The translations under genes and the position numbers were made by a program. From Bacteroidia bacterium (GTDB lineage: Bacteria; Bacteroidota; Bacteroidia; NS11-12g; UBA9320): a DNA stretch of 17,473 nucleotides. The notes beneath the pieces were generated by a model. It searched no databases. It saw nothing but the letters and a program-made list of their open reading frames with translations, and was not told the origin of the DNA. Positions 1-15,860 of the stretch are shown in pieces. Where the stretch lies: assembly GCA_022425465.1 (NCBI GenBank), contig JAKMFK010000009.1:1-17473 (forward strand), given 5' to 3'. Position 1 is the first letter of the stretch. Each line of letters opens with the position of its first letter.

Positions 1-459
1 AGCCACATGGGAATCAACACGCTGAAATGGACGCACCCTGAACGAAATAATTTATTTTCTAGTCGATTACATTTTACCCATCAATTATTATTGGCTCGTA
101 AATTCTCCAAAAACTTCAGTGCTCAAATAACTCCAACGCTTACCCATCTCAATATTGTGAAAAACAGCGATTTGTCTAATGATGTTTTTTCTGTTGGAAT
201 AGGAGCTCGTCAAAAACTATTTACGCGAGTTTCTGTTAATTTAGAGTACTATTATGTTTTCCCTGATCAACTTAAGAGCAATAGCTCTAATGCATTATCT
301 ATGGGTTTTGACATTGAAACTGGAGGCCATGTCTTCCAACTTTTCTTTACTAACGCATACTCCCCTTTTGAAAAAGGATTCATAACAGACACTAAAGGTA
401 AATGGATCGATGGAGACGTTCGATTCGGGTTTAACATTGCTAGAATATTTGATTTTTAA
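1..459 (+). CDS. DUF5777-like beta-barrel protein, 3' end (partial)
   Basis: The reading frame is open from the first base, so the start lies upstream and only the last 152 or so residues are visible. Short alternating hydrophobic/polar strands ending in aromatic residues suggest an outer-membrane-type beta barrel. The C-terminal block, with GGHVFQLFFTN, then EKGFITDT and finally GDVRFGFNIARIFDF, resembles the conserved end of the DUF5777 barrel family of Bacteroidota; that family match is from memory. The function of these barrels is not established. In other genomes they often sit near exported or haem-related proteins, but nothing here shows that. The gene stops 22 bases before the next start, and a promoter box spans its last codons. 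Likely an outer-membrane protein; family call fairly confident, function unknown. Confidence 0.7.
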   Translation, partial: SHMGINTLKWTHPERNNLFSSRLHFTHQLLLARKFSKNFSAQITPTLTHLNIVKNSDLSNDVFSVGIGARQKLFTRVSVNLEYYYVFPDQLKSNSSNALSMGFDIETGGHVFQLFFTNAYSPFEKGFITDTKGKWIDGDVRFGFNIARIFDF

Positions 460-467
460 TATATTTG
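437..467 (+). promoter_or_regulatory. Bacteroidota-type promoter for the 482 gene
   Basis: TTG at 437-439, a 20-base spacer, then TATATTTG at 460-467. This fits the Bacteroidota vegetative consensus TTG-N17-23-TAnnTTTG. The expected transcription start, a few bases downstream, would give a 5' leader of under about 10 bases before the ATG at 482. It overlaps the end of the upstream barrel gene, so the PKD gene may be transcribed on its own. Pattern match only; AT-rich DNA gives chance matches to the -7 box, but the spaced -33 TTG strengthens this one. Confidence 0.5.
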
Positions 468-481
468 AAAGGACTTCATCA

Positions 482-3037
482 ATGAAAACATTTTCATTCA
501 CATATCATATTCTAAAGACTAAAGCAAAAGCCATAGTAGTCTTTTTAATGCTGTTTATGGGTGTTTTCTCAGCCGATGCTTCGCATGTTGTTGGAGGTGA
601 ATTATATTACAATCGTGTTCTAAATCAGTTTGGTAATGTTAGATATGAAATCGTATTTAAAATTTATTTTGATTGTCAGAATGCTAATCCTGGAACAATT
701 GATCGGGATGGTAACCTAGCCTACATTGGTGTTTTTGATGCTGTAACAAATGCAAGAAAACAAACCATTTCGCTAAACAATGGTGTAAGAAAAGTCGTCA
801 ATTCGGTAAACTATGAATGCGTTAAAGAACCTTCTGGTGTTTGTGTAGTACAGTACACCTATAAAAGAACTGTATTTCTTGATCCAGGAACAAATGGGCT
901 CATCCTTTCTCACCAACTTTGTTGCAGAAATGCGATCACAGATAATGTAAACGATGCTGGGAATACAGGTTCAACTTATTGGAGTTATATCCCCCCGTCA
1001 AATACCAATAATTCTAGTCCAAGGTTTAAAAATGTACCCCCAACCTATGTGTGCATCAACGCACCTTTGACATTAGACTATAGTGCTGAAGATCCTGATG
1101 GTGATTCTTTGGTATATGAATTTTATACTCCTTTTTTAGGTGGATCAGCTACAGATCCAAAACCAGAAAATCCGAGCCCTCCACCATATGCTTTATTGAC
1201 ATGGAATCCTTCTTTTTCTTCCAATAATCAAATAACAGGAAATCCATCTAGCTTCATCAATAGGCAAACAGGAGAATACACGCTCACTCCCACGGCAAAA
1301 GGGACTTATGCCGTTGGTGTACGAGTACTTGAATATCGAAATGGGAACCTTCTTGGTTCCACATTGAGCGATTATCAGTTTACAGTTATTGATTGTCAAT
1401 TTGATGTTATTGCTAATTTCAATATTCCAGGAGGAACTGCAGTTGGCGGATCATATGCATTCGAGTGTGGTGATACTGCTCGTTTCAACAATATCAGCAA
1501 CTGGAATAAAATAAAGACACCCAAGGTGAAGTTCTTTTGGGATTTTGGAGATCCAACAACCAATGATGACACGCTCACAACCTTTGACCTTAACGAAAAA
1601 GTAGAATATATTTATCCTGGAAATGGGAATTACACTGTAACCTTAACCATCATCTCCTCAATATGTAACGATACCTACAAGTACGGTGTTAGAATTCGAT
1701 CTACCAGAGATGTTGACCTTGGTCCTGACCGTGTTTTTTGTGAGGACTTTTCAATTCTTCTTGACACAAAAGCATCAGATGCCATAACTGTCGATTGGAA
1801 CACCGGAGCCAAAGGAAGTCGAATAACTGTCAGTGATACTGGAACATATATACCTACGGTATCCTATGGTAAATGCTTATACAAAGACACTATTCAACTG
1901 AAGTATGATAAGGTACCCACATTAAAATTACCAAAAGACACTTTAGAATGTGATACCTTGATTGACATTCTCCTAGATGCTGGTATTCCTGGACTAAATT
2001 ACAGTTGGAATACTAATCCTCCAACATTTAACCGAACACTTAGAGTAAATACATCCGGCAATTATATAATTACAGCAAGTAACCTTAATTGTACCATTAA
2101 AGATACAATACGAGTTTGGCAAGCGACTCATCCCAAAGTGGCAGATGCGTTTTATTGTGATGAATTCAATCATTTAGTTGACCTATCAGGTATAGAAGAA
2201 GCCGAATATTTATGGGATAATGGTAGCTCCACTTCAGTTGTGACTTACATAAGTCCTGGTAAGCGTTGGATTCAATTAACTCAAAGACACTGCATTAACT
2301 CCGACACGTTCATCGTCGACAATTCTGGTGTTGATCTTGAATTGGGTGATGACCAACATTTTTGTGATTTTATAACTGCTACATTAGATGCTGGTTCTGA
2401 TGCAATAAAATATGCTTGGAATAATGGAGATACTACTCAAACCATTAATGTGAACACTCCAGGGAAGTATCGTGTTCTCGTTGAAAATGAAGATGGGTGT
2501 ACCAACTCGGACTCTGTTTTAATAAGTGTTTCCAACTCTCCTACTTTCAACCTAGGTAACGATACAACCATTTGCATCAACTCCCCTACAACTATATCAG
2601 CTCCTTCTGGATTTGATGAATATTTATGGAATGATGAAAGCACAGGGCAAAGTATTACAACCATTTTAGGAGGAGTTTATAAAGTAACTGTTACAGATAA
2701 TTATGGTTGTAAAGGATCGGATAGTCTATTTATAACAGTAGATGAAAATGCCCTTCCTAATGAAATGTATTTCCCTAATGCATTTACTCCAAATGGCGAC
2801 AACTTAAATGAACTATTCCCATATCAAATTGATGTTGCTCAACCGGCTTATTACATCACAATATACTCACGATGGGGAGAAAAAGTGTTCGACTCAAGGA
2901 CCTCATTAACTGATAATTGGGACGGAACTTACCAAGGTAAAAAAGTGCCAAATGAGACCTTCTTTTACTATGTAAACTATAGAGGTTGTGATGGCAATAT
3001 TCGCAATTCTAAGGGTACTGTTAATCCCATTTATTAA
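482..3037 (+). CDS. Secreted PKD/Ig-repeat protein with T9SS type-B (gliding motility) C-terminal sorting domain
   Basis: A predicted surface or secreted protein of 851 residues. The ATG at 482 was chosen because it begins a clear signal peptide (basic start, hydrophobic core at about residues 17-30, likely cleavage after A33) and has AGGA about 9 bases upstream; an in-frame ATG at 410 lies inside the barrel gene. The mature N-terminus SHVVGGELYY matches the HIVGGE-type head of many Bacteroidota CTD proteins. One PKD domain with the WDFGD core lies near residues 345-405. About five Ig-like repeats follow (412-755), each with a DxxxC start and a W-N/D-N/T-G turn, such as LGDDQHFCD and LGNDTTICI. 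Residues 762-851 form the sorting domain (AFTPNGDN, YSRWGEKVF, WDGTY). The family is exported by T9SS, often as adhesins or filament subunits. Ligand unknown. Its stop overlaps the stop of the convergent Nudix gene. Confidence 0.88.
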   Translation: MKTFSFTYHILKTKAKAIVVFLMLFMGVFSADASHVVGGELYYNRVLNQFGNVRYEIVFKIYFDCQNANPGTIDRDGNLAYIGVFDAVTNARKQTISLNNGVRKVVNSVNYECVKEPSGVCVVQYTYKRTVFLDPGTNGLILSHQLCCRNAITDNVNDAGNTGSTYWSYIPPSNTNNSSPRFKNVPPTYVCINAPLTLDYSAEDPDGDSLVYEFYTPFLGGSATDPKPENPSPPPYALLTWNPSFSSNNQITGNPSSFINRQTGEYTLTPTAKGTYAVGVRVLEYRNGNLLGSTLSDYQFTVIDCQFDVIANFNIPGGTAVGGSYAFECGDTARFNNISNWNKIKTPKVKFFWDFGDPTTNDDTLTTFDLNEKVEYIYPGNGNYTVTLTIISSICNDTYKYGVRIRSTRDVDLGPDRVFCEDFSILLDTKASDAITVDWNTGAKGSRITVSDTGTYIPTVSYGKCLYKDTIQLKYDKVPTLKLPKDTLECDTLIDILLDAGIPGLNYSWNTNPPTFNRTLRVNTSGNYIITASNLNCTIKDTIRVWQATHPKVADAFYCDEFNHLVDLSGIEEAEYLWDNGSSTSVVTYISPGKRWIQLTQRHCINSDTFIVDNSGVDLELGDDQHFCDFITATLDAGSDAIKYAWNNGDTTQTINVNTPGKYRVLVENEDGCTNSDSVLISVSNSPTFNLGNDTTICINSPTTISAPSGFDEYLWNDESTGQSITTILGGVYKVTVTDNYGCKGSDSLFITVDENALPNEMYFPNAFTPNGDNLNELFPYQIDVAQPAYYITIYSRWGEKVFDSRTSLTDNWDGTYQGKKVPNETFFYYVNYRGCDGNIRNSKGTVNPIY

Positions 3038-4831: not shown

Positions 4832-5296
4832 ATGCAAGTTAATAAAGCAATCCAATTATTTGAAAAATCGATTCAAAAACACCTCGGTGTAAAACCGGAA
4901 GAGATTCGCTGTAAAAATGAGGGAGAATATGTCATTATTCGTGGTGAATCAACTGAGCTCTATGTGGATATTTGGCAACCTGATCAAACTAGCCAATGGC
5001 AATACTTTGATCGAAACGAAATTGCTGGGATTTTTCAAATCGTATCACCTATATGTGAATACCCTCATGATGAACATTTAGGTCAGTTTATGGAGGAATT
5101 AGCTCATCTTAACTTTCATCTTTTTTCTGCAAAATTTGTAGCCAATGCTCAGCAAAAAATTGTAAGCATACAATACAAACGTATTTTAGAAGGTCTTAAT
5201 GAAACTGAGATTATTGAGCCTGTAGAGGCTGTTGGCTATTATGCAGAAAACTTAAAAGAATATCTTGCCGAAAAATACCACGTCAAAAAAATATAG
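4832..5296 (+). CDS. YbjN-like small cytosolic protein
   Basis: A 154-residue soluble protein without signal peptide or membrane segment. A helical start (residues 1-20), alternating strands (EYVIIRG, ELYVDIWQ), a central helix of type FMEELAHLNFHLFSAKFV and a C-terminal helical tail resemble the YbjN / CesT-like alpha-beta fold, which includes type III secretion chaperones and stress-related regulators. I see no catalytic motif, and the fold assignment is by pattern, not by search. It is separated from pyrC by 32 bases containing its own -7 box, and from the sigma factor by 56 bases, so it need not belong to either transcript. The ATG at 4832 is the first in frame and gives a normal N-terminus. 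Function unknown. Confidence 0.6.
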   Translation: MQVNKAIQLFEKSIQKHLGVKPEEIRCKNEGEYVIIRGESTELYVDIWQPDQTSQWQYFDRNEIAGIFQIVSPICEYPHDEHLGQFMEELAHLNFHLFSAKFVANAQQKIVSIQYKRILEGLNETEIIEPVEAVGYYAENLKEYLAEKYHVKKI

Positions 5297-5352
5297 TTAC
5301 CGTGTAGGCAACTATTCCTTTCATTAAAACATCTATCTTAAGAATCCATGCA

Positions 5353-5895
5353 ATGAGCAATGAAAAATATGATGACATATCATTAATTAAGGCTTGTAGC
5401 AACGGAGACCATAACGCATTTAATAAAATATATAATAAATACGCTGGACTAATGTATAGTATCTGTCTTAGATATATGAATTCACACAATGATGCTCAAG
5501 ATGCACTGCAAGAAGGGTTCATCAAAGTGTTTAATAAAATATCCTCGTATTCATTCTCTGGGAGTTTTGAAGGGTGGATGAAAAAAATATTCATTCATAC
5601 CAGCATTGAACTAATTCGTAAAAAAAAATACCACCAAGACATTAATAATATCAATGATTCTGAATTTACTAAAACGGCTAAAATTGATATTGGAGACTTG
5701 GATGCAAAAAAATTGATTGATGTAATTCAAGAACTGCCACAAGGATACCGAACAGTATTTAATATGTATGTAATTGATGGATATTCACATAAAGAAATAA
5801 GTAAAACACTTAACATATCTGAGAGTACCAGTAAAACTCAATTATTTAAGGCAAGGAAGCAACTTCAAATAAGATTAAAAGGATGGTTTGAATAA
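5353..5895 (+). CDS. ECF-type RNA polymerase sigma-70 factor
   Basis: A 180-residue two-domain ECF sigma factor, the normal length. Region 2 spans about residues 20-92 with the -10-binding and core-binding helix DAQDALQEGFIKVF (47-60) and the downstream FEGWMKKIFIHTSIELIRKKK stretch (72-92). Region 4 spans about 121-176 with ELPQGYRTVF and the helix-turn-helix GYSHKEISKTLNISEST (143-159), which reads the -35 element. There is no C-terminal extension, so control should come from a separate partner. The stop overlaps the ATG of the next gene by one base (TAATG at 5893-5897), the usual sigma/anti-sigma arrangement. The A-rich codon use looks lower in GC than pyrC or metH by eye. I could not identify its own promoter in the 56-base gap upstream, nor its target motif. 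No ribosome binding site is evident. Confidence 0.95.
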   Translation: MSNEKYDDISLIKACSNGDHNAFNKIYNKYAGLMYSICLRYMNSHNDAQDALQEGFIKVFNKISSYSFSGSFEGWMKKIFIHTSIELIRKKKYHQDINNINDSEFTKTAKIDIGDLDAKKLIDVIQELPQGYRTVFNMYVIDGYSHKEISKTLNISESTSKTQLFKARKQLQIRLKGWFE

Positions 5896-7112
5896 TGAAA
5901 AGATTCAAAAACATATCTGAATTTGAAAAGCTAGTCAAAGACCAGCTTGAGAATCATAGTAGCCCTCCACCATCATCTATTATAGAAAACTTTGACTTTT
6001 CATCTTTAGAGCAATCAAGTGCCAAGACAGCAAAACTTATTGAGTTAATCAAAAATCCAATTCAAGCAATTAAGATAGCCTCAATTGTTGGAGCGTCTGC
6101 TACTATGCTATTTTTTGCATTAGAAAATAAAAACACCCCAACTAAAGATTTCAAAAGTAGTATGCCTGAAGAGACTTACACATCCGCTGTAGACTCAGCT
6201 GCAAATTTGCAAAACACAGAAAGCATCAAAAAAGAATTAACCGACATACCTAAAGAGTTCAAAATAGTCAAAAATGATACTACAAACTCTTTAATTCAGC
6301 CATTACAAACAGAAATAACCCAAGAAGTTGAGAATCCAATATCTACCAAAGTTATTGAAGATAAATCTTCCAATTCAATCAATTATACACCTGATAACAT
6401 AGTTGTGTCTAATGCTAATCCATGCATCGGTGAAATGATCACCTTAAAAAGTAAAACCAAAGGAGACTGGTACATTAATGATCGAATTTTATCCAGAAAT
6501 ACTGACCAGATCGAATATAAAACTGATTCCGATAAACCTCTTTCAGTAGGTTTTGTAAATGAGTATGGTAAAACTTATGAAGTGATTAAAGGCATTAATA
6601 ATGACTATCAAATAATCACTAAAAAAATTAACTCTACTGAATTCTCCTTTTCAATAAGCAATCAAGAAATTCTTGTTAACTGGTATCTGGATGGTTTATT
6701 AATAGTAGAAAATACAAACAAATGCCAACTTAATGAAAAACAAGTAGGTGAACATGTAATTAAAACTATACCTGTAGATGTTCCTTGTGCAAAAGAAAGT
6801 AAATCTACATTTCAAGTAAAAGGCACAGGGTCTATCAAATTCTTTAATGTATTTACACCTAACGGAGATGGTACTAATGATGAATATCCAGTAGAAATAA
6901 AAAACTATGAAACATATCAAATTCTGATTTATGACCAAATCAAAAATCAGATTGTATTTACATCAAATGACCCTAATAATCGATGGGATGGTAGTATAAA
7001 TAATCAAGGTGAAAATTGCCCTCCTGGAGAATACCTAGCTAAGATTAATTACACCTTAAATGGAGAGAAAGCCCAAACAAAAAATATAAAATTCACGCTA
7101 ATACGCCCCTAA
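5895..7112 (+). CDS. Membrane-anchored putative anti-sigma factor with periplasmic sorting-domain-like C-terminus
   Basis: A 405-residue protein with three parts. Residues 1-55 are charged and should be cytosolic; FEKLVKDQLENHSSPPP (10-26) resembles the short N-terminal helix-plus-proline motif seen in many Bacteroidota proteins encoded directly after ECF sigma factors. One membrane helix lies at about 59-77 (AIKIASIVGASATMLFFAL), with no signal peptide. Residues 78-310 are a polar linker and Ig-like strands (NPCIGEMITLKS, GDWYIND). Residues from about 315 form a type-B sorting-domain-like module: NVFTPNGDGTND, then RWDGSINN, and an end at FTLIRP. The usual RWGE signature is replaced by DQIKNQ, so the module is degenerate. 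The overlap with the sigma gene and the membrane anchor suggest it binds the sigma factor, but no classical anti-sigma zinc-finger (HxxxCxxC) is visible. The role is inference; domain order is clear. Confidence 0.7.
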   Translation: MKRFKNISEFEKLVKDQLENHSSPPPSSIIENFDFSSLEQSSAKTAKLIELIKNPIQAIKIASIVGASATMLFFALENKNTPTKDFKSSMPEETYTSAVDSAANLQNTESIKKELTDIPKEFKIVKNDTTNSLIQPLQTEITQEVENPISTKVIEDKSSNSINYTPDNIVVSNANPCIGEMITLKSKTKGDWYINDRILSRNTDQIEYKTDSDKPLSVGFVNEYGKTYEVIKGINNDYQIITKKINSTEFSFSISNQEILVNWYLDGLLIVENTNKCQLNEKQVGEHVIKTIPVDVPCAKESKSTFQVKGTGSIKFFNVFTPNGDGTNDEYPVEIKNYETYQILIYDQIKNQIVFTSNDPNNRWDGSINNQGENCPPGEYLAKINYTLNGEKAQTKNIKFTLIRP

Positions 7113-7177
7113 ATTTGAATATTATGATGAAGCAAACTAACTTTACAAACTTTTTTATGAATTGCAACAATCAAATT

Positions 7178-10100
7178 ATGAATATTTCGAAATCAAAATT
7201 TGTATTTATTAAATACTTATTTTCATTGTTATTTATATCATCAAGTGTTATTGGTTTTGCCCAATGTAGCCCAAAAGTGGTCAGAACTGATGGCACATTG
7301 GGCACATCAGGTACTTTCTGTGAAGGTCAAATTATCTCATTTGAAGCTAACTCGCCTGGATATACTACAACCATTGAGTGGGATTTTGGGTATAACAACA
7401 ATAAAAGTAGTGCTGAAAAACCTACGTTTAACTACCCTGTTGCTGGAACCTACACCGTTACTTTCAAAGGAGACGGATTTGCAGGTCAGTGTACAGAAAC
7501 GTTAACAATAACGATTAAGCCATCGCCAGATATTTATTTCAAACGTTTGAATGACTCTGCTCAGTGTTTCAAAAACAACTTGTTCTGCTTTCAAGACAGT
7601 TCACAAGCACCAAGTGGTTTGATTGTTAGACAAACTTATGTATTCAGTAACGGATTGCGTATAGACTCTATAAACCCTACCTTTCCATACTCGTTTTGTG
7701 TAGATATTTCAGACCCTAGTGGTGGATTTTTTGACTTAGTTATCGAATCCGAAGACTCAAGTGGTTGTGTAAGCAAACTATCATTAAAAGACTATCTATA
7801 TGTTTATCCAAAATTGGGTATAGAATTTCAAAACCTGACACCTAATCCGAATCCGAATTGCGATTCTACATTGGGTGTATATAAAAATATTTCACTCGTT
7901 CCTTTATCAGACATTGACTCTTTCGAATGGGTGTTTGGAGATGGTAATTCTGTAAAAGGTAACTCGACAACTAATACAGAGTGGTGGAACGGCCCAGCTA
8001 ATGACGGAATTATCCGACACATGTACCGAAAAAATGGAACATTTGACGGAACTCTAATTGCATCTGCATACGGATGTAGCGATACGTTTACTTTTAGAGC
8101 GGCAGTTAGTAATATTTTACTAGAACCTAAAATCATATCAACACCAAACCCAGCTTGTACTCCCGACAATCCTATTGATTTTTCCGTACAGGGTCTAAAT
8201 GGAGCAAATGTGAGTTCATTCTTATGGAACTTTGGTAACCCTCCAGCAGGTCCGCCTAACTTTAATGATAGAACTTTAACTCCCAGTTTTGCATATGGAC
8301 CTGGTCCATGGATGATTAGCCTTCGATTACAATCTGGCCCTTGTGATATAACTGTTTATGACACCGTTCAAGTAATTGGTCCTGGATCTACAATTGAAGT
8401 TCCATTTGATAGAGTTGCTGAAGACCAAGCATACCAATGTGTGATAGAAGATACTGTTTGTTTTCCAAACAACTCCTCTTTTTACCAGAATGACTTTAAC
8501 CAATTAGACGAAGATTCTGTTGTATTTTACTACAAATACACCTTCGAACGAGTTTTTGATTTAGGAACTGGTCTTTACAGTTGGCATTATAAAACCTGGG
8601 AAGAAAGACCACGTGGTAATTTCCTACTATCTGATACAACTTACAGTAACTCTGACACAATCAACAAAAATGGATTCAAAGTCTATTATGATGCTACTAA
8701 AGACTCTATAGCCGCAATTAGTGGTGGCGATACGACATGGTATAAAGATTTCTATGCCACTGCTCCTGACGTGAGTTATCGATTCGGTGTCAATGGTAAG
8801 AAACGATTTGTATTTAATTACACCCCACCAGTTGGAAGAGGTGGAGTTGGAATCGGGGATCAAACTGCAATTCCTCCTGCCGTTCAATACAAAGACTACA
8901 GACCGAACGTATGGCGAGTTTGGGATATGGGTGATCAATATGCACCTCAATGTACTACTGATTCCAGACCATGGGTTAACAAAAATGTAGGAATAAACTG
9001 TAATTGGGTAGTTGATAGTGCCCCTTGTCATTGGTATACGCCATGGGATGAAATATATGAGACTTTCCAAGATGGAAGAAATTACACTCAACCATACCGC
9101 GAGACCAGAATATCAAAACCCTTAAGAGAGTGTTATGTGGTAAACATTTATGCTGCTGACACCATGATTGTACCTGGCGATACAGTCCTAACTATTCCAA
9201 TTGACTCATCTTACACTTATCGTGGGGTGAATATTCCAGCAGGGGTAACTTATCCAAAAAACAGGTTAGGTAACTGGATAGTAAGGCGTCCTCCTTCCAA
9301 GTTTTATGGGACCAAGTTTTATTGGGATGCTGCAAGAGACACCTTCGTTGCAATCAATAACATAGTTGACACAACGTATCATAATGAGGACTCACTGGGT
9401 AGAAATAACCCACGCAATGGTAAAGGGAATACTAAATGGACTGTTACTTATCATGACATGGAGTTCTTTATCCCAAATGGTGTTACTATTGATATACTTA
9501 AACTTGATGCCCCAGGTGGAGGCGGTGGTGCTGGTGCTACTAGATCTATTACAGGCCCTAGAAAAGTCATAATTGAAGCTGACGAACAATTCACTTTGTA
9601 CAGTCTTGATTCGATTACACCAACCATTTACATTGAAGAAAATGATCCTGACACTTCTTACGCTCAACCATCTGCATACGTTGTTCAGGAAGAAAGATTT
9701 GGTATTCCCGTAAGAGTTGTAAAACAAGCTGTTTTTGTTGACTCTGCTGGTCACCGAGAAAAATGGTTTACAGATCAAGCAGTATGTTTTAATGTTTCTT
9801 TATGGCAAAAAGACACCATACATCCGTTAATGTGCGAGTCTACAGGAACAAAATCATTAGCTTTAATTCCACCTAATGCTAAAGGTCTTGAATGGGTAAG
9901 TGGAACACCATGTCCATTCGATGGAAATAACTTGAACTATATTTTAACCTTTGATATCTCTGAAACGAAACCAGGTTGTACACAACAATGGTTCGCTGTA
10001 AACTTAGATACCTTCGCTGATCCAAACGCATTTATTCCATACAATGCTGGTCTATTAGCTCCTCCACCTCCAGGTATTCCAATTCCATTTCAACTTCCTT

Positions 10101-12964
10101 ATGATATAAGGGGTAATCTTGGTACTCAATTTGTGAAAGGATACACTCCAGGACAAATAGGTGACCCATATGCAAGAAACCCAATTGGTTCATTTGCACT
10201 AGGGTTAATTGTCGGAAACGGAAAACCTGACCCAAATGGTGGACCTCCAGCTTGTTTAGATACTTTCTATTACCCAGATTTATTCAGAATCCTTCCGCTT
10301 GATGCAAGTTTTGATATTGTATATCCTACTCCAATCAGTACTGCTCCATTACAATACTACATGTGCCCAGGAGATACTGCATACTACCGAATTACCAACC
10401 CAATCCAAGATAGTATCAAAACACTTCGTTGGGCATGGGGATACCAAGGTTTAGGAAAAGGACCAAATTTATCTATCTACGTTGAAGAATTTAAATATTA
10501 TCAGCCATATACTGGTCCAAGACCAAATAGAAACGACAAGAATATTGTCTATAATGGAGAAGACTGGCTGTATAATTATGTAATACGTAGAAATATCACC
10601 GATGTATTAGGAGAAGAATTAATAGATACCATTGTCACATCTATAATTAAAGACTGGAAGATAGTTGCCATCAAAACAAATACCGACCGATTAATTAAAG
10701 ATGCCTTTGAGCAGCTCTTAAACCTTAATTATAATGAAATACCCGCAGAGGATATTCCATATTATCTTGGAGATGGTACCTTTGGTTGTTTGGATACGAC
10801 AGGGATTAGTGCTCTATTCCAATTTGGTAAAGAAGTATATTCTGACAAAACTGGTGAATGGGGTGTAACTCGTGTAGGTGATAAAATATACCGCACTGAT
10901 ACTAGTGTTAATCCAAGTGTTCAAATTGAAACCCAGCACATTCTTCACTTCAGAGATTCCTCAATGCAAGGATTTGACACCCTTATGTTGGATACCAATT
11001 TTGATGGTAGGAAGGACATGCTAACTGGTCTTTATAGACACATCTATAAATACCCAGTAATTACCAACCCAGATGAATGTAACCCTGGAGTAAAAGATAC
11101 GATATATAAAAATGGTAGTGGACCAATGGCCCCTTCACTATTCTTGAATAGTACTCCTGGTTGTGAAGCAAGATCTACAAGACTACTTAATGTAGGATTC
11201 TATAACGACTTCTGGGTAAGCAATGAGAATTTATGTCAGGGTCTTAATCTAGTAATTGAAGATTCATTGAGATATTATCAATATGGAGAACAAGATCCAC
11301 TAACCTACCCAATTCACGATTTCCCATTATGGCAAACTAGATATATTACCAATAAGGAAACCTATCGAGCAGATTGGGATATTAATGATGGGCAATTTGA
11401 TAGTACACGTTCTATTATCCTAAACCACACATATACAGATCCAGGAGAATATACAATCACAGTTGTGGCTGAGGATAGTATTGGTTGTACGGACACTACT
11501 TTCTTAAAAGCATATGTCTCAAAAGTTATCCCTGGATTCGATTTTGGAAGCGAAATTGTTAATTGTGCATCCATTATTAATTTCCAAGACACTACTTCAG
11601 TGATTGACCCATGTGCTGCAAAAGATACATGTTCAAATGGAACCGACTTATCTTGTGAAAAAATCATTGCATGGGAATGGGATTTCGGTGATGGGACTCG
11701 AAAAAGTATTCTTCAAAATCCATCTCATAACTATACATCTGGTGGAACTTATACTGTAACACTTATTGTTACAACTCAACTTGGATGTATAGATAGTATC
11801 AAACGCCAAATATTTATTCCTGGTCCACAACCAAGATTCGAATTTGATAATGATGTTTGGAATACCAATGATACTGCTGTTATCTGTGTGAATGATTTAG
11901 TCAATCTAAAAAATACAAGTCAAGGAGATGTTACAAACCCTAAATTCCAAATCATTTGGGGAGATGGAAGTAACGATCCTCCTGGTGATATAGACTCTGT
12001 ATTTGGACATGTTTACACAACACCAGGAACTTATGAATTATTCTTAATCCAAGAAGATGAAGTACCAGGTACGGGTGATCGTTGTTCTAGAATTTTCCCA
12101 GACACAAACCCTGATTTATTGATTCAACGTCGAATTGTGGTTATAGTTAATCCTCGTCCTGAAGTAGAAATCACTGCATCAGACACGGTAGTTTGTCCAG
12201 ATGACCCTATAACATTCACAGGTATTTTAGATGACCGATATATCAGATTAAAATGGTTGATGGGATACAATGATGATGAAATCAATGAAAATGTACCTGA
12301 CACAACCGTTACATACGCTTATCCTAACCCTGGTGTATATGAAGTTATTCTAGCACCAGAATACGATGAGCTACCAAGATGTTGGGATCGAGACACGATA
12401 CGTGTTCGAGTAGTAGACGTAAAAGCAAGCTTTGATATTGATAGTTCAGCTAGACCTGAGTTCTGCTTCACTAATACATCTACTGGAGCTATTAGCTACA
12501 AATGGACATTCGAAGAAAATGATCCTGAGCCAGATGGTTCTAGTGAAGAAACTGACCCATGCTACAACTGGGATGAACGTAAAGGTGTCTACCAAGTTTG
12601 TTTGACTGCAACTAGCTCAGAAGGTTGTGAGGACGACACTTGTCAGACCATATCCAATACATTCTTAAGACGACTTGTACCATACAATGTCTTTACTCCA
12701 AACAGCGACGATGACAAGAATACTGAATTCGTAATTGAAGGTGAAAGCCTTGATGAATACGAAATCAAAATCTTTAATCGATGGGGTGAGTCTGTCTTCA
12801 AGTCTACTGATATTAACTACTCTTGGAACGGTAGAATAAACAATACAGGAGAAGAATGTCCGGAAGGAACCTACTTCTACATCATAAACTATACATTTAA
12901 GTTTGGTGAGAAAAATGAAGGTAAAGGACCAATTGAAGGTTCTGTAGACTTGATTAGAAATTAA
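7178..12964 (+). CDS. Giant secreted multi-PKD protein with T9SS type-B sorting domain
   Basis: About 1,928 residues, predicted surface-exposed or secreted by T9SS. The ATG at 7178 begins a textbook signal peptide (ISKSK, then a hydrophobic stretch ending VIGFAQ, cleavage near residue 29); ATGs at 7124 and 7127 are alternatives that only add a polar leader. PKD-like cores centre near residues 68 (EWDFGYN), 251 (EWVFGDG), 350 (LWNFGNP), 1400 (DWDINDG), 1501 (EWDFGDG), 1594 (IWGDGS), 1693 (KWLMGYN) and 1776 (KWTFEEN). A region of about 950 residues (420-1380) lacks clear PKD cores, is rich in Tyr, Trp and Pro, holds a GGGGGAGA run and one internal repeat. Residues 1836-1928 are the sorting domain (NVFTPNSDD, FNRWGESVF, YSWNGRINN, VDLIRN). 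It follows the putative anti-sigma gene by 65 bases and ends at a strong terminator. Likely adhesin or surface-matrix protein; ligand unknown. Confidence 0.88.
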   Translation: MNISKSKFVFIKYLFSLLFISSSVIGFAQCSPKVVRTDGTLGTSGTFCEGQIISFEANSPGYTTTIEWDFGYNNNKSSAEKPTFNYPVAGTYTVTFKGDGFAGQCTETLTITIKPSPDIYFKRLNDSAQCFKNNLFCFQDSSQAPSGLIVRQTYVFSNGLRIDSINPTFPYSFCVDISDPSGGFFDLVIESEDSSGCVSKLSLKDYLYVYPKLGIEFQNLTPNPNPNCDSTLGVYKNISLVPLSDIDSFEWVFGDGNSVKGNSTTNTEWWNGPANDGIIRHMYRKNGTFDGTLIASAYGCSDTFTFRAAVSNILLEPKIISTPNPACTPDNPIDFSVQGLNGANVSSFLWNFGNPPAGPPNFNDRTLTPSFAYGPGPWMISLRLQSGPCDITVYDTVQVIGPGSTIEVPFDRVAEDQAYQCVIEDTVCFPNNSSFYQNDFNQLDEDSVVFYYKYTFERVFDLGTGLYSWHYKTWEERPRGNFLLSDTTYSNSDTINKNGFKVYYDATKDSIAAISGGDTTWYKDFYATAPDVSYRFGVNGKKRFVFNYTPPVGRGGVGIGDQTAIPPAVQYKDYRPNVWRVWDMGDQYAPQCTTDSRPWVNKNVGINCNWVVDSAPCHWYTPWDEIYETFQDGRNYTQPYRETRISKPLRECYVVNIYAADTMIVPGDTVLTIPIDSSYTYRGVNIPAGVTYPKNRLGNWIVRRPPSKFYGTKFYWDAARDTFVAINNIVDTTYHNEDSLGRNNPRNGKGNTKWTVTYHDMEFFIPNGVTIDILKLDAPGGGGGAGATRSITGPRKVIIEADEQFTLYSLDSITPTIYIEENDPDTSYAQPSAYVVQEERFGIPVRVVKQAVFVDSAGHREKWFTDQAVCFNVSLWQKDTIHPLMCESTGTKSLALIPPNAKGLEWVSGTPCPFDGNNLNYILTFDISETKPGCTQQWFAVNLDTFADPNAFIPYNAGLLAPPPPGIPIPFQLPYDIRGNLGTQFVKGYTPGQIGDPYARNPIGSFALGLIVGNGKPDPNGGPPACLDTFYYPDLFRILPLDASFDIVYPTPISTAPLQYYMCPGDTAYYRITNPIQDSIKTLRWAWGYQGLGKGPNLSIYVEEFKYYQPYTGPRPNRNDKNIVYNGEDWLYNYVIRRNITDVLGEELIDTIVTSIIKDWKIVAIKTNTDRLIKDAFEQLLNLNYNEIPAEDIPYYLGDGTFGCLDTTGISALFQFGKEVYSDKTGEWGVTRVGDKIYRTDTSVNPSVQIETQHILHFRDSSMQGFDTLMLDTNFDGRKDMLTGLYRHIYKYPVITNPDECNPGVKDTIYKNGSGPMAPSLFLNSTPGCEARSTRLLNVGFYNDFWVSNENLCQGLNLVIEDSLRYYQYGEQDPLTYPIHDFPLWQTRYITNKETYRADWDINDGQFDSTRSIILNHTYTDPGEYTITVVAEDSIGCTDTTFLKAYVSKVIPGFDFGSEIVNCASIINFQDTTSVIDPCAAKDTCSNGTDLSCEKIIAWEWDFGDGTRKSILQNPSHNYTSGGTYTVTLIVTTQLGCIDSIKRQIFIPGPQPRFEFDNDVWNTNDTAVICVNDLVNLKNTSQGDVTNPKFQIIWGDGSNDPPGDIDSVFGHVYTTPGTYELFLIQEDEVPGTGDRCSRIFPDTNPDLLIQRRIVVIVNPRPEVEITASDTVVCPDDPITFTGILDDRYIRLKWLMGYNDDEINENVPDTTVTYAYPNPGVYEVILAPEYDELPRCWDRDTIRVRVVDVKASFDIDSSARPEFCFTNTSTGAISYKWTFEENDPEPDGSSEETDPCYNWDERKGVYQVCLTATSSEGCEDDTCQTISNTFLRRLVPYNVFTPNSDDDKNTEFVIEGESLDEYEIKIFNRWGESVFKSTDINYSWNGRINNTGEECPEGTYFYIINYTFKFGEKNEGKGPIEGSVDLIRN

Positions 12965-12986
12965 TCTGTAATTCTATATCACATTG

Positions 12987-13017
12987 AAAAACCATTCGCT
13001 TAGGCGAATGGTTTTTT
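12987..13017 (+). terminator. Intrinsic terminator after the giant PKD gene
   Basis: A perfect inverted repeat, 12987-12999 with 13004-13016, has loop TTAG and the core ACCATTCGC/GCGAATGGT, followed by a run of six T. It lies 22 bases after the stop at 12964 and before the metH riboswitch, so it ends the sigma operon and insulates metH. The A-rich left arm could also support weak termination from the other strand. Confidence 0.92.
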
Positions 13018-13022
13018 ATTTA

Positions 13023-13055: not shown

Positions 13056-13060
13056 CAGTG

Positions 13061-13163
13061 CTTATTATGAAAGACTGAGGGATTAGGCCCATAGACGTCT
13101 TGGCAACCTGAGTATTCAAATATCAAGGTGCTACATCCTATCCCACAATTGGGAGAAGATAAG
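13061..13163 (+). ncRNA. SAM-I (S-box) riboswitch controlling metH
   Basis: The conserved SAM-I core is readable: GAGGGATTAGGCCC (13077-13090), GGCAACC (13102-13108) and AAGGTGCTA (13125-13133). Stem P1 pairs CTTATT (13061-13066) with GATAAG (13158-13163). P2 pairs AAGAC (13071-13075) with GTCTT (13096-13100). P3 uses ACCT (13106-13109) and AGGT (13126-13129). P4 pairs TCCC (13141-13144) with GGGA (13151-13154). S-adenosylmethionine binding normally switches such genes off. No hairpin with a U-run lies between P1 and the ATG at 13203, so a transcriptional terminator is not evident; control may act on translation or by another route. The rest of 12965-13202 holds only the terminator, the promoter and a 39-base leader. 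Confidence 0.93.
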
Positions 13164-13202
13164 TGTTCTATAAACCTAGTTGTACTCACTCATTTAATAA
13201 TT

Positions 13203-15860
13203 ATGACAAGACAATTAGAAAATTACCTTCGATTAAGTGGTTTAGAACCATTAGTTAAATCTCCCAATATTAATTTTATGAATATTGGTGAACGAACTAA
13301 CATTACGGGTTCTAAGAAATTTGCTCGCTTAATTTTAAATGACCAATATGATGAAGCAATAGATGTTGCACGCCAACAAGTAGAGAATGGAGCTCAAATC
13401 ATCGATATTAATATGGATGAAGGAATGCTTGATGGTAAGTCAGCAATGATTAAATTCCTAAACCTTATTGCTGCAGAACCTGATATTTCTAGGGTCCCAG
13501 TTATGATTGATTCTAGTAAATGGGAAATAATCGAGGCTGGACTTAAAGTTATACAAGGTAAAGGAATTGTCAACTCAATAAGTCTCAAAGATGGAGAAGA
13601 AGAGTTCACTAAAAGAGCAAAGAAAATCAAATGGTATGGAGCAGCAACCGTAATCATGGCATTTGATGAAGAAGGACAAGCGGATACATTAGAAAAACGA
13701 ATAGCTATCTGTAAACGAAGCTATGAAATCCTAACAAATAAAGTCCTATTTCCACCTCAGGATATCATTTTTGATCCTAATATTTTAACAGTTGCTACAG
13801 GTATTGAGGAACACAATAATTATGCTGTAGATTTTATTGAAGCAACACGTTGGATAAAAGAAAATTTACCATTTGCAAAAGTGAGTGGCGGAATAAGCAA
13901 CATCTCATTTAGTTTTAGAGGAAATAATATCATTCGAGAAGCAATGCATTCTGCATTTCTCTATCATGCCATAAAAGCCGGCTTAGATATGGGAATTGTC
14001 AATGCGGGTATGATTGAAGTATATGAAGAATTACCAAAAGATATTCTTGAAGCAGTTGAAGATGTTCTACTAAACAGACATCAAGACGCAACTGAAAATT
14101 TAATCGCTCTAGCAGAAGTAGTTAAAGGTGATGGGAAAAAAATAGTACAAGACTTAAGCTGGAGGAATGAAAATGTTTATGAACGATTAAAATACTCTCT
14201 TATCAAAGGGATAACAGAATATATTGAAGAGGATACAGAAGAAGTTCGACAACAGCTTAATAAACCCATAGAGGTTATAGAAGGCCCTCTCATGGCTGGA
14301 ATGAGTGTAGTAGGTGACTTGTTTGGAAGTGGGAAAATGTTCCTACCTCAAGTAGTTAAAAGTGCACGTGTGATGAAAAAGTCTGTAGCTTATCTGCAAC
14401 CATATCTAGAAGCAGAAAAAAGTGAAGGAAACACACAAGGAAAAATACTACTAGCAACTGTAAAAGGAGATGTTCACGATATTGGGAAAAATATTGTAGG
14501 AGTTGTATTAGCTTGTAACAATTATCAAATCATTGATCTTGGTGTTATGGTTCCAACGAATACTATTATTGATGCTGCAATTGAACACAACGTCGATATA
14601 ATTGGACTGAGTGGATTGATAACTCCCAGTCTAGAAGAAATGGTCAATATAGCTGATGAGATGGAAAGAAGGTCACTTAAAATACCTATCTTAATTGGTG
14701 GTGCAACAACCTCTCGAATGCATACTGCAGTAAAAGTTGCTCCAAAATATTCTGGCCCAGTAATTCATGTTTTAGATGCATCTCGTTCTGTTCCCGTTGC
14801 GGGTCAACTCATCGGAGAAAAAACACAAGAAAACTTTATTTCACAGATTAAATCAGAATATAGACAACTTGCTACTCAACACGCAGCCCGACAATCTGAA
14901 AAAAAGATACTGCCTTTTAATGAATGTCTAGCTAATAAATTGACCCTAGATTGGAACAACTATACCCCACCTAAACCAAATAACCTAGGGATTGAACTAC
15001 TTGAAGATTTTGATTTATCATTACTTAAGGACTATATCGATTGGACTCCATTCTTTTCAACTTGGGAACTTAAAGGCAAATACCCCGATATTTTTAAAGA
15101 TGTGTATGTTGGGGATGAAGCAAAAAAACTGTTTAAGGACGCCCAACTCATGCTTGATCGATTAATCTCTAAAAAAATACTTAAAGCTAACGGAGTTGTA
15201 GGAATTTTTGAAGCCTATGAAAAAAATGGAGATGTGATTCTTCCAAACGAAGAAGTAACATTTAACTTTTTACGTCAGCAAAGAAAAATGGGTAATAATA
15301 TCTCTAACAGATCTTTAGCTGACTATATTGTTCCAAAAGAATTGAATAAAAAAGATTATATCGGAGCATTTGCGGTTACTACAGGAATTGGAATTGAACG
15401 TATCATAGAGAAATATGAAAAAGATCAAGATGATTATAATTCCATTCTTGTAAAAGCAATTGCTGATCGACTTGCCGAAGCATTTGCTGAATATTTACAT
15501 GAATATGTGCGAAAGAAAATGTGGGGCTACGCATCAAATGAATCATTGGATAATGAACTTCTCATTAGAGAAAAGTATCAAGGTATAAGACCTGCTCCAG
15601 GTTACCCAGCGTGTCCAGATCACACCGAAAAGGAAAAACTTTGGAAATTGCTTGATGTTGAAAATCGTACAGATATTAGCTTAACTGAAAGTTATGCGAT
15701 GTTCCCAACAGCAGCAGTATCCGGATTTTATTTTTCTCATCCTGAAAGTAAATACTTTGCCGTTGGTAAAATTGGTGATGATCAACTCGTCAATTATGCA
15801 AAACGTAAAAATGTATCATACGATTACGCAAAAAAATGGTTGAGCCCAAATTTACTATAA
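13203..15860 (+). CDS. metH: Cobalamin-dependent methionine synthase lacking the homocysteine domain (split MetH, C-terminal subunit)
   Basis: 885 residues, against about 1,227 for E. coli MetH. The methyltetrahydrofolate-binding barrel starts at once (FMNIGERTN, 25-33) and runs to about 310. The helical cap and cobalamin domain follow, with D423-V-H425-D-I-G428, where H425 is the expected cobalt ligand, and the SGLITPS loop. The C-terminal AdoMet reactivation domain has R796[11 protein letters not shown]807 and ends with [11 protein letters not shown]. The N-terminal homocysteine/zinc domain is absent, so a separate homocysteine methyltransferase subunit must supply it; such split MetH is common in Bacteroidota. 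The ATG at 13203 fits the family N-terminus; an upstream in-frame GTG at 13128 falls inside the riboswitch. It transfers the methyl group of 5-methyl-THF to homocysteine and regenerates THF. Regulated by the SAM-I riboswitch directly upstream. Confidence 0.95.

Follow-up and report, generated by a model that had tools for sequence, protein, structure and literature searches.

A putative envelope-spanning anti-sigma factor with a type IX secretion sorting domain, encoded between an extracytoplasmic function sigma factor and a giant secreted cargo in Bacteroidia

FlgM, the flagellar anti-sigma-28 factor, and ExsE, which belongs to a type III secretion system, are negative regulators that are themselves secreted, and expression follows export. 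In Bacteroides thetaiotaomicron, Dma1 and Dma2 are encoded beside an extracytoplasmic function (ECF) sigma factor gene of the ECF21 group and combine an N-terminal anti-sigma domain, a helix, a disordered tether and a C-terminal barrel; their sigma dependence is published as well (PMC13088901). Here we describe a related gene arrangement in a 17,473-base stretch of DNA from a Bacteroidia bacterium, hereafter the window, which is the entire contig JAKMFK010000009.1 of an incomplete assembly (GCA_022425465.1, our G000; 1.78 Mb, 88% complete). Three adjoining genes encode an ECF sigma factor (SIG), a putative envelope-spanning anti-sigma factor (MID) and a giant cargo of the type IX secretion system (T9SS; GIANT). 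The interpretation that we favour, with reasonable though not high confidence, is that positions 5307-13018 form a self-contained operon for sigma factor, anti-sigma factor and cargo that probably regulates itself, and in which MID is a T9SS substrate that is unable to leave and that reports on the export machine. This interpretation rests on the gene order and its conservation, a promoter-like site at fixed spacing, a terminator and, within MID, N-terminal homology, a helix, a variable stretch and a C-terminal sorting domain (CTD).

MID resembles the Dma proteins in its adjacent ECF gene, an N-terminal putative sigma-binding domain, one helix, a long disordered tether and an outer-membrane-directed end, and dma2, too, lies in a three-gene operon (PMC13088901). 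It differs from them at its far end, where a T9SS type B sorting domain takes the place of an outer membrane beta-barrel, and in that the third gene encodes a giant T9SS cargo. Since the barrel is missing, we do not file MID as a Dma, although it may work like one; the MID N-terminus was compared with ECF neighbours across the class, and with Dma1 and Dma2 by their description only. By analogy, PorA of P. gingivalis is the nearest functional precedent inside the T9SS: it carries a T9SS CTD and stands upstream, in the PorA/PorXY/SigP pathway, of an ECF sigma factor controlling T9SS genes, but it is a surface protein with a signal peptide and acts via a two-component system (PMC7712824). MID, unlike PorA, looks anchored in the inner membrane, adjoins the sigma gene and shares its operon with cargo instead of machine genes. 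In contrast to FlgM and ExsE, MID looks membrane-tethered and belongs with an unrelated secretion system, so that any coupling to export would be analogous only. We rate the Dma-like envelope-spanning anti-sigma factor as known, and the sorting-domain end together with the cargo operon as new; in our literature search, in which preprints and most subscription papers fell outside the scope, no title or beginning of an abstract described a T9SS sorting domain on an anti-sigma factor.

SIG (5353..5895, + strand, 180 aa) was recognised by Pfam and NCBIfam matches and by orthologue alignments, with Sigma70_r4_2 at 62.3 bits and Sigma70_r2 at 49.6 bits; its top NCBIfam match, which bears on a possible place in the ECF21 group, is TIGR02985 at 93.6 bits, under the cut-off of 126.4. 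MID (5895..7112, + strand, 405 aa) shares one base with SIG, whose TAA stop codon overlaps the ATG of MID. GIANT (7178..12964, + strand) has a frame that is open from 7115 or 7124 (1,949 or 1,946 aa), with 7178 as the best start, giving 1,928 aa; the methionine at this position is at least 90% conserved among 22 aligned GIANT sequences, the one of the window counted, and begins an N-terminus that by inspection is signal-peptide-like. PKD domains, many invariant cysteines and a C-terminal type B sorting domain (12683..12961, + strand; CHU_C, 68.5 bits, residues 1854-1933 of translation P0003) follow, and with these parts GIANT has the make-up of a T9SS type B cargo. Directly behind it lies an intrinsic terminator (12985..13018, + strand) with a 15-bp stem, a 4-nt loop and a T-rich tail, at -21.1 kcal/mol (z -6.6, equalled by none of 200 shuffles). 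A SAM-I riboswitch (13059-13165; Rfam RF00162, 70.4 bits), 5' of the methionine synthase gene metH, opens the metH unit, and because of this riboswitch and the terminator the transcription unit of the trio most likely ends with GIANT. The overlap of the first two genes, the one-helix membrane protein with its sorting-domain-like end, the 1,928-residue cargo and the strong terminator had all been proposed in the initial annotation, and each of them was borne out, the membrane protein by hydropathy and by CHU_C and TIGR04131 scores above their cut-offs.

The annotation of MID draws on domain matches, an AlphaFold model and profiles. Residues 1-40 (5895..6014, + strand) carry an anti-sigma-like motif, I..FE..LK..LE....P.P. 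They are followed by a single transmembrane helix, placed at residues 55-80 (6057..6134, + strand) in the model at low confidence and at residues 56-74 by hydropathy, by a disordered, hypervariable tether (residues 81-161; 6135..6377, + strand), by two immunoglobulin (Ig)-like domains (residues 165-311; 6387..6827, + strand) that were seen in the model and have generic Ig/FN3 matches only, and by the type B sorting domain (residues 312-405; 6828..7109, + strand), which matches CHU_C (PF13585) at 48.9 bits (cut-off 27) and TIGR04131 at 41.2 bits (cut-off 35). There is no N-terminal Sec signal peptide, the hydrophobic helix beginning only at residue 55-56. In the model, built with 30 sequences and having a mean predicted local distance difference test score (pLDDT) of 73, short helices at residues 7-38 and the helix at 55-80 precede the well-predicted Ig-like domains and CTD, and residues 77-161 have a pLDDT below 50 and no confident structure. 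A PDB search and Foldseek with MID yielded nothing beyond generic matches of the PKD, Ig or FN3 sort, with low TM-scores. Among 13 members of the genus, mean pairwise identity is 51% in residues 1-40, 31% in the helix, 13% in residues 81-161, 32-34% in the Ig domains and 57% in the CTD, so both ends are conserved and the middle is variable, the pattern expected for a tether fixed at both ends. A single helix was called in 74 of 76 MIDs (the 76 include one truncated ahead of its CTD and another for which no helix was called), with a median start at residue 50 in 74 MIDs. CHU_C was present in all 28 MIDs scanned, and the CTD lies at most 12 residues from the C-terminus in 74/74. The stretch from helix to CTD measures 114-296 residues (median 240, Ig domains counted in; 74 MIDs), which would be long enough to cross the periplasm, and the Ig domains are absent from the short MIDs of relatives.

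The N-terminus connects MID to anti-sigma genes with other ends. When the next gene was read for CHU_C and a helix behind the 30 best class-wide SIG relatives, 22 matched CHU_C and 8 did not, and a helix was called in 28; further SIG loci were read in sets of 10, then 20 (some overlapping earlier genes), then 5 from relatives. A profile of 71 MID N-termini matched the N-termini of 13 ECF neighbours without CHU_C, namely all 8 such neighbours of the best SIG relatives and 5 of 20 loci picked by eye, at hhalign 96-97% and E 1e-9 to 1e-10, as against 2% for 8 FecR-like or other neighbours that were sorted by eye. Where CHU_C is missing, inspection shows F, L or Y as the last residue in the products of 18 of 23 anti-sigma genes, many of them with patterns like those at the end of an outer membrane barrel, and a few of these proteins are short (241-301 aa) and may lack a barrel; Pfam named no barrel in L240 or L258. 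The N-terminal motif is doubled in tandem in both CHU_C-ended and other forms (L261/L293, L281; L305; by inspection), as would be expected of a binding unit. We read MID, from its sequence, as a variant among the envelope-spanning anti-sigma factors, one whose outer end is a T9SS signal.

Zinc-binding anti-sigma (ZAS) proteins carry a Cys/His zinc motif in their cytoplasmic segment. Residues 1-55 of MID hold no cysteine, which argues that it is not of the zinc-finger type, and no FecR domain was hit among its Pfam matches. The idea of a circuit distinct from zinc-finger and FecR-type systems, put forward in the initial annotation, thus holds as regards the missing cysteines and the dissimilarity to FecR-like neighbours, but the layout itself has a precedent in the Dma family.

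MID relatives were sought in 38 genomes of the family, and 40 loci were taken for reading. Adjoining SIG and MID genes followed by GIANT or its cut start were found in 32 of the 38 genomes; in the other six (G004, G012, G013, G022, G023, G026) a paralogue, fragments or the edge of a contig was all that was seen. It took the MID profile to recognise the MID of L067. The GIANT profile matched 102/108 genomes of the order at E 1e-60. A second family yielded 36 loci, 25 with SIG-MID-GIANT, 3 cut within or before MID and 8 sigma-less paralogues, the order being present in all 25 loci that had upstream sequence; 4 further loci from the same GIANT set were paralogues in the family of the window, one of which (L202) equals the GIANT of the trio in length. 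At least 29 of 247 class genomes matched GIANT at E 1e-75, a lower bound since two candidates were scored per genome, and 21 of them lie outside the order. From 18 of these 21 genomes 20 loci were read: the trio was present in all 18 long-GIANT loci, which belong to seven families, and absent from the two with GIANTs of 1,259-1,272 aa. SIG and MID are also followed by a GIANT relative in G277, G329 and G341 (cut or in pieces in two of them) and in locus L103 of a metagenome-assembled genome.

Altogether the gene order is present in about 79 of the genomes examined, which represent nine families (L103 is without a family assignment), which argues that it is not due to chance, and the conserved synteny anticipated for the trio is hence found while the flanks change (in the loci examined DHOase, NUDIX, HolB or a YbjN-like protein on the 5' side and MetH, MnmE, TrpS or a nucleotidyltransferase on the 3' side). 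Based on first-start open reading frames, the gap between SIG and MID lies between -11 and +11 in 63 of 76 loci and the one between MID and GIANT is below 100 in 68 of 74; complete GIANTs (n=67) range from 1,484 to 2,336 aa. The SIG profile was rejected as a marker of the trio, being too broad (it matches 223/247 class genomes), and trio calls were therefore based on adjacency and on the MID and GIANT profiles. In a sigma tree of 110 rows the labels are clustered (8 changes vs 29.7 in shuffles), its deep forks being unresolved and its bootstrap not settled, so that a single origin of the giant type is neither shown nor excluded.

A candidate promoter precedes the trio. AAC in the -35 element is the usual ECF layout, and a putative ECF-type promoter, GGCAACT-N16-CATCT(A), lies at 5307-5334 (5335 with the A) on the + strand, 18 nt before the start codon of SIG. 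The elements AAC-N17-CNTC occur within 130 bases 5' of SIG in 31/32 loci of the family, 17/24 of the second family and 15/19 others, in total 63/75 trio loci compared to 2.0-2.5% of base shuffles (L065, in which the MID start is over-extended, and L186, in which SIG is split, were left out of the count). At spacings 16, 18 and 19 the same elements occur in no locus, and at other spacings from 12 to 22 in 0-3 loci per group; as a control, the site precedes 1 of 20 other ECF genes in four of the same genomes. G000, G028 and G020 have the strict pattern GGCAACYN16CRTCT a single time, at the trio; a count in 11 genomes gave 23 matches vs 10 for the reversed control, and in 9 of these genomes the pattern stands at the trio, the exceptions being G024 and G025.

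With a looser pattern, the site was also found in five genomes 5' of a gene for a secreted protein (360-378 aa), two of which proteins were scanned and have DUF1573/HYDIN-like domains. Among 30 family orthologues of this DUF1573 gene (L363:3541-4629, L333, L367-L396) the site precedes 24, always at spacing 17, compared to 2 loci with the elements at spacing 15 and 0.8% of shuffles; 16 of the 24 sites are nearly identical throughout, spacer included, and are therefore not independent. No full-length orthologue was found in G000, G021, G026, G027 and G032, and no match whatever in G009. From these sites, the DUF1573 gene likely belongs to the regulon as its second member. The strict site lies also, in G001, 5' of a 1,765-aa PKD type B cargo and of a 669-aa type A cargo, with the motif 13 nt upstream of the type A gene (L359:5492-7501) and 18 nt upstream of the type B gene (L360:3204-8501), which suggests that the regulon can include other cargo. 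We take the site as a sign of autoregulation and of a small family regulon of surface or periplasmic proteins, as far as motif positions can indicate. The SM6 ECF promoters of Flavobacterium psychrophilum likewise have an ECF-type -10 box (CGT) and bring several T9SS genes and one ECF/anti-sigma pair into one promoter class (PMC9723704). Machine genes are targets there (PMC9723704), whereas here the site is carried by the trio (63/75) and the DUF1573 gene of the family (24/30), and the sites before trio and DUF1573 gene, unlike SM6, have a GCAAC/ACAAC -35 element with fixed spacing.

The far end of the anti-sigma protein and the product of the next gene tend to match. In loci other than the giant ones, 9 anti-sigma genes with a CHU_C end were found, 4 of which are followed by a gene for a CHU_C protein (L397, L401, L402 and L426; the cargo of L402 lies 757 bases downstream). 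Among the 23 anti-sigma genes that lack CHU_C, 2 run into a contig end and none of the remaining 21 is followed by a CHU_C protein (4/9 vs 0/21, one-sided Fisher p 0.005, for loci selected non-randomly from the SIG hit list and another locus set, with L397 picked knowing its CHU_C end). The association looks real but not obligatory. Type B CTD proteins dock on PorP-like outer membrane barrels, as in SprB-SprF and PG1035-PorP, and these barrels are proposed to collect CTDs at the SprA translocon (PMC9143113). The locus differs from these pairs in that no PorP-like gene was recognised beside GIANT in the window. We know of no sigma/anti-sigma pair beside sprB. A PorP/SprF-like gene 3' of GIANT was also looked for among the downstream genes examined (MetH, MnmE, TrpS, nucleotidyltransferase) and is not among them. 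PorP-like genes are present in 5/5 genomes tested, G000 among them, where three lie away from GIANT, and SprA is present in 5/5 other genomes tested.

From the known Dma family and type B CTD biology, the following course of events can be proposed. SIG would transcribe its own operon, and the first 40 residues of MID would keep SIG bound at the inner membrane. The tether would span the periplasm, and the CTD would dock either on the T9SS translocon of the outer membrane or on a PorP/SprF-like barrel there. The state of the machine or its cargo could then be read out through release of SIG, which would go on to make SIG, MID and GIANT. As to polarity, our guess, and a doubtful one, is that an idle machine captures and pulls the CTD of MID, so that SIG is freed and GIANT is made, while cargo CTDs occupying the machine would leave SIG held; the opposite polarity is nearly as likely. 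More tentative than the operon model itself, though less so than this polarity, is the idea of a class-wide T9SS counterpart of FlgM/ExsE, a tethered-substrate anti-sigma factor whose CTD capture would free a private sigma factor for a giant cargo and whose far end, barrel or sorting domain, would be swapped together with the operon output.

Several observations weigh against this model of an export-reporting operon. Within MID, the pLDDT is 48-74 in blocks of residues 1-40 and 37-48 in the helix, and the charges on the two sides of the helix show a weak bias (+0.31 vs -0.34), so that the N-in topology is based mainly on homology. The promoter-like site is missing from 12/75 trio loci and is present before 2 of the 8 close sister sigma genes that are paired with an anti-sigma gene without CHU_C; a search that was not exhaustive recognised no gene of the T9SS machine behind such a site. 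The looser pattern has 26 matches vs 23 for its reversed control in 10 genomes, and we therefore rejected genome-wide counts as proof of a regulon, the conserved position alone being informative. SprA was not found in G000, whose assembly is incomplete (88% complete). GIANT paralogues without SIG and MID exist: L202 in G032, a genome that also has the trio, encodes a full-length paralogue of 1,909 aa, and others measure about 1,700 aa in 8 second-family loci (L190-L196, L208), 1,273-1,418 aa in L199-L201 and 1,259-1,272 aa in L264 and L267, with weaker GIANT relatives in L075 and L078. Away from the giant loci, 5 of the 9 anti-sigma genes with a CHU_C end lack a neighbouring CTD cargo (L404, L418, L421, L423, L424). 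Finally, when the last 100 residues of MID were scored against all GIANT ends of 67 complete loci, the own GIANT had a median rank of 31/67, coming first in 2/67 and in the top tenth in 11, with a mean score of 137 for own and 133 for other GIANTs. Cognate CTD matching, by which MID would mimic its own cargo, was thus rejected because the own GIANT is not clearly preferred, and the unmatched CTDs argue against competition private to each pair; a dock that is shared fits them better. These ranks, the five cargo-less genes and the paralogues without the pair count against a strict cargo-matching version of sensing.

The same observations bear on the alternative that survives best, which is possible but in our estimate rather unlikely: MID would be a Dma-like sensor of the outer membrane or surface state (e.g. 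a ligand or outer membrane stress), its type B CTD serving as an anchor via a PorP-like barrel and export status not being the signal. MID shares its N-terminal family, helix and long middle with relatives that have no CHU_C, type B CTDs do anchor proteins through PorP-like barrels (PMC9143113), and both the unmatched CTDs and the 5/9 cargo-less genes fit. Against it, the CTD-ended form is the one with a CTD cargo in its operon (4/9 vs 0/21, in addition to the complete giant loci), a co-occurrence that simple anchoring does not predict. We consider it improbable that MID is instead a second T9SS cargo, a surface protein started at the inner membrane and perhaps a stalk or partner of GIANT, and not an anti-sigma factor. 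Its type B CTD is genuine, the MID of the window has two Ig-like domains, and promoter-like site and terminator place MID and GIANT in one transcription unit; however, MID has no signal peptide, its conserved 40-residue segment before the helix is homologous to segments encoded after other ECF genes and is doubled in some MIDs, and short MIDs have no Ig domains. That the neighbours are conserved without a regulatory link, SIG controlling other genes and the trio being run from an unrelated promoter, would suit the broad ECF clade to which SIG belongs but is very improbable, as adjacency is kept in nine families while both flanks changed and as an ECF-layout site stands at fixed spacing that is nearly absent before other ECF genes.

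The trio sits between a gene for a YbjN-like protein (4832-5296) and metH (13128-15860), which are both on the + strand, as is the trio. The former encodes 154 aa without a Pfam match, and its confident model (pLDDT 92) resembles in a fold search the YbjN/type III secretion chaperone-like fold (2plg, ExsC, SigE, CesT, YbjN). It is a frequent upstream neighbour, found 5' of SIG in 32/32 family genomes with the pair, 6/25 loci of the second family and 1/18 others. It was considered as a fourth operon member and rejected, being rare outside the family and lying upstream of the promoter-like site, which separates it from SIG; it is probably, for the latter reason, a separate transcription unit. 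A second type B CTD protein (875 aa, PKD) is encoded at 410-3037 of the window, just 3' of a DUF5777 beta-barrel gene (1-459).

How Bacteroidota match the output of giant surface proteins to the capacity of their T9SS is, in our judgement, an open question. If the proposed operon model is true, a putative anti-sigma factor that itself bears the export signal would make this question testable, and the Dma layout would be a modular envelope sensor with exchangeable outer ends, while the promoter-like site with its fixed spacing offers a sequence handle for the study of the regulon in uncultured genomes.

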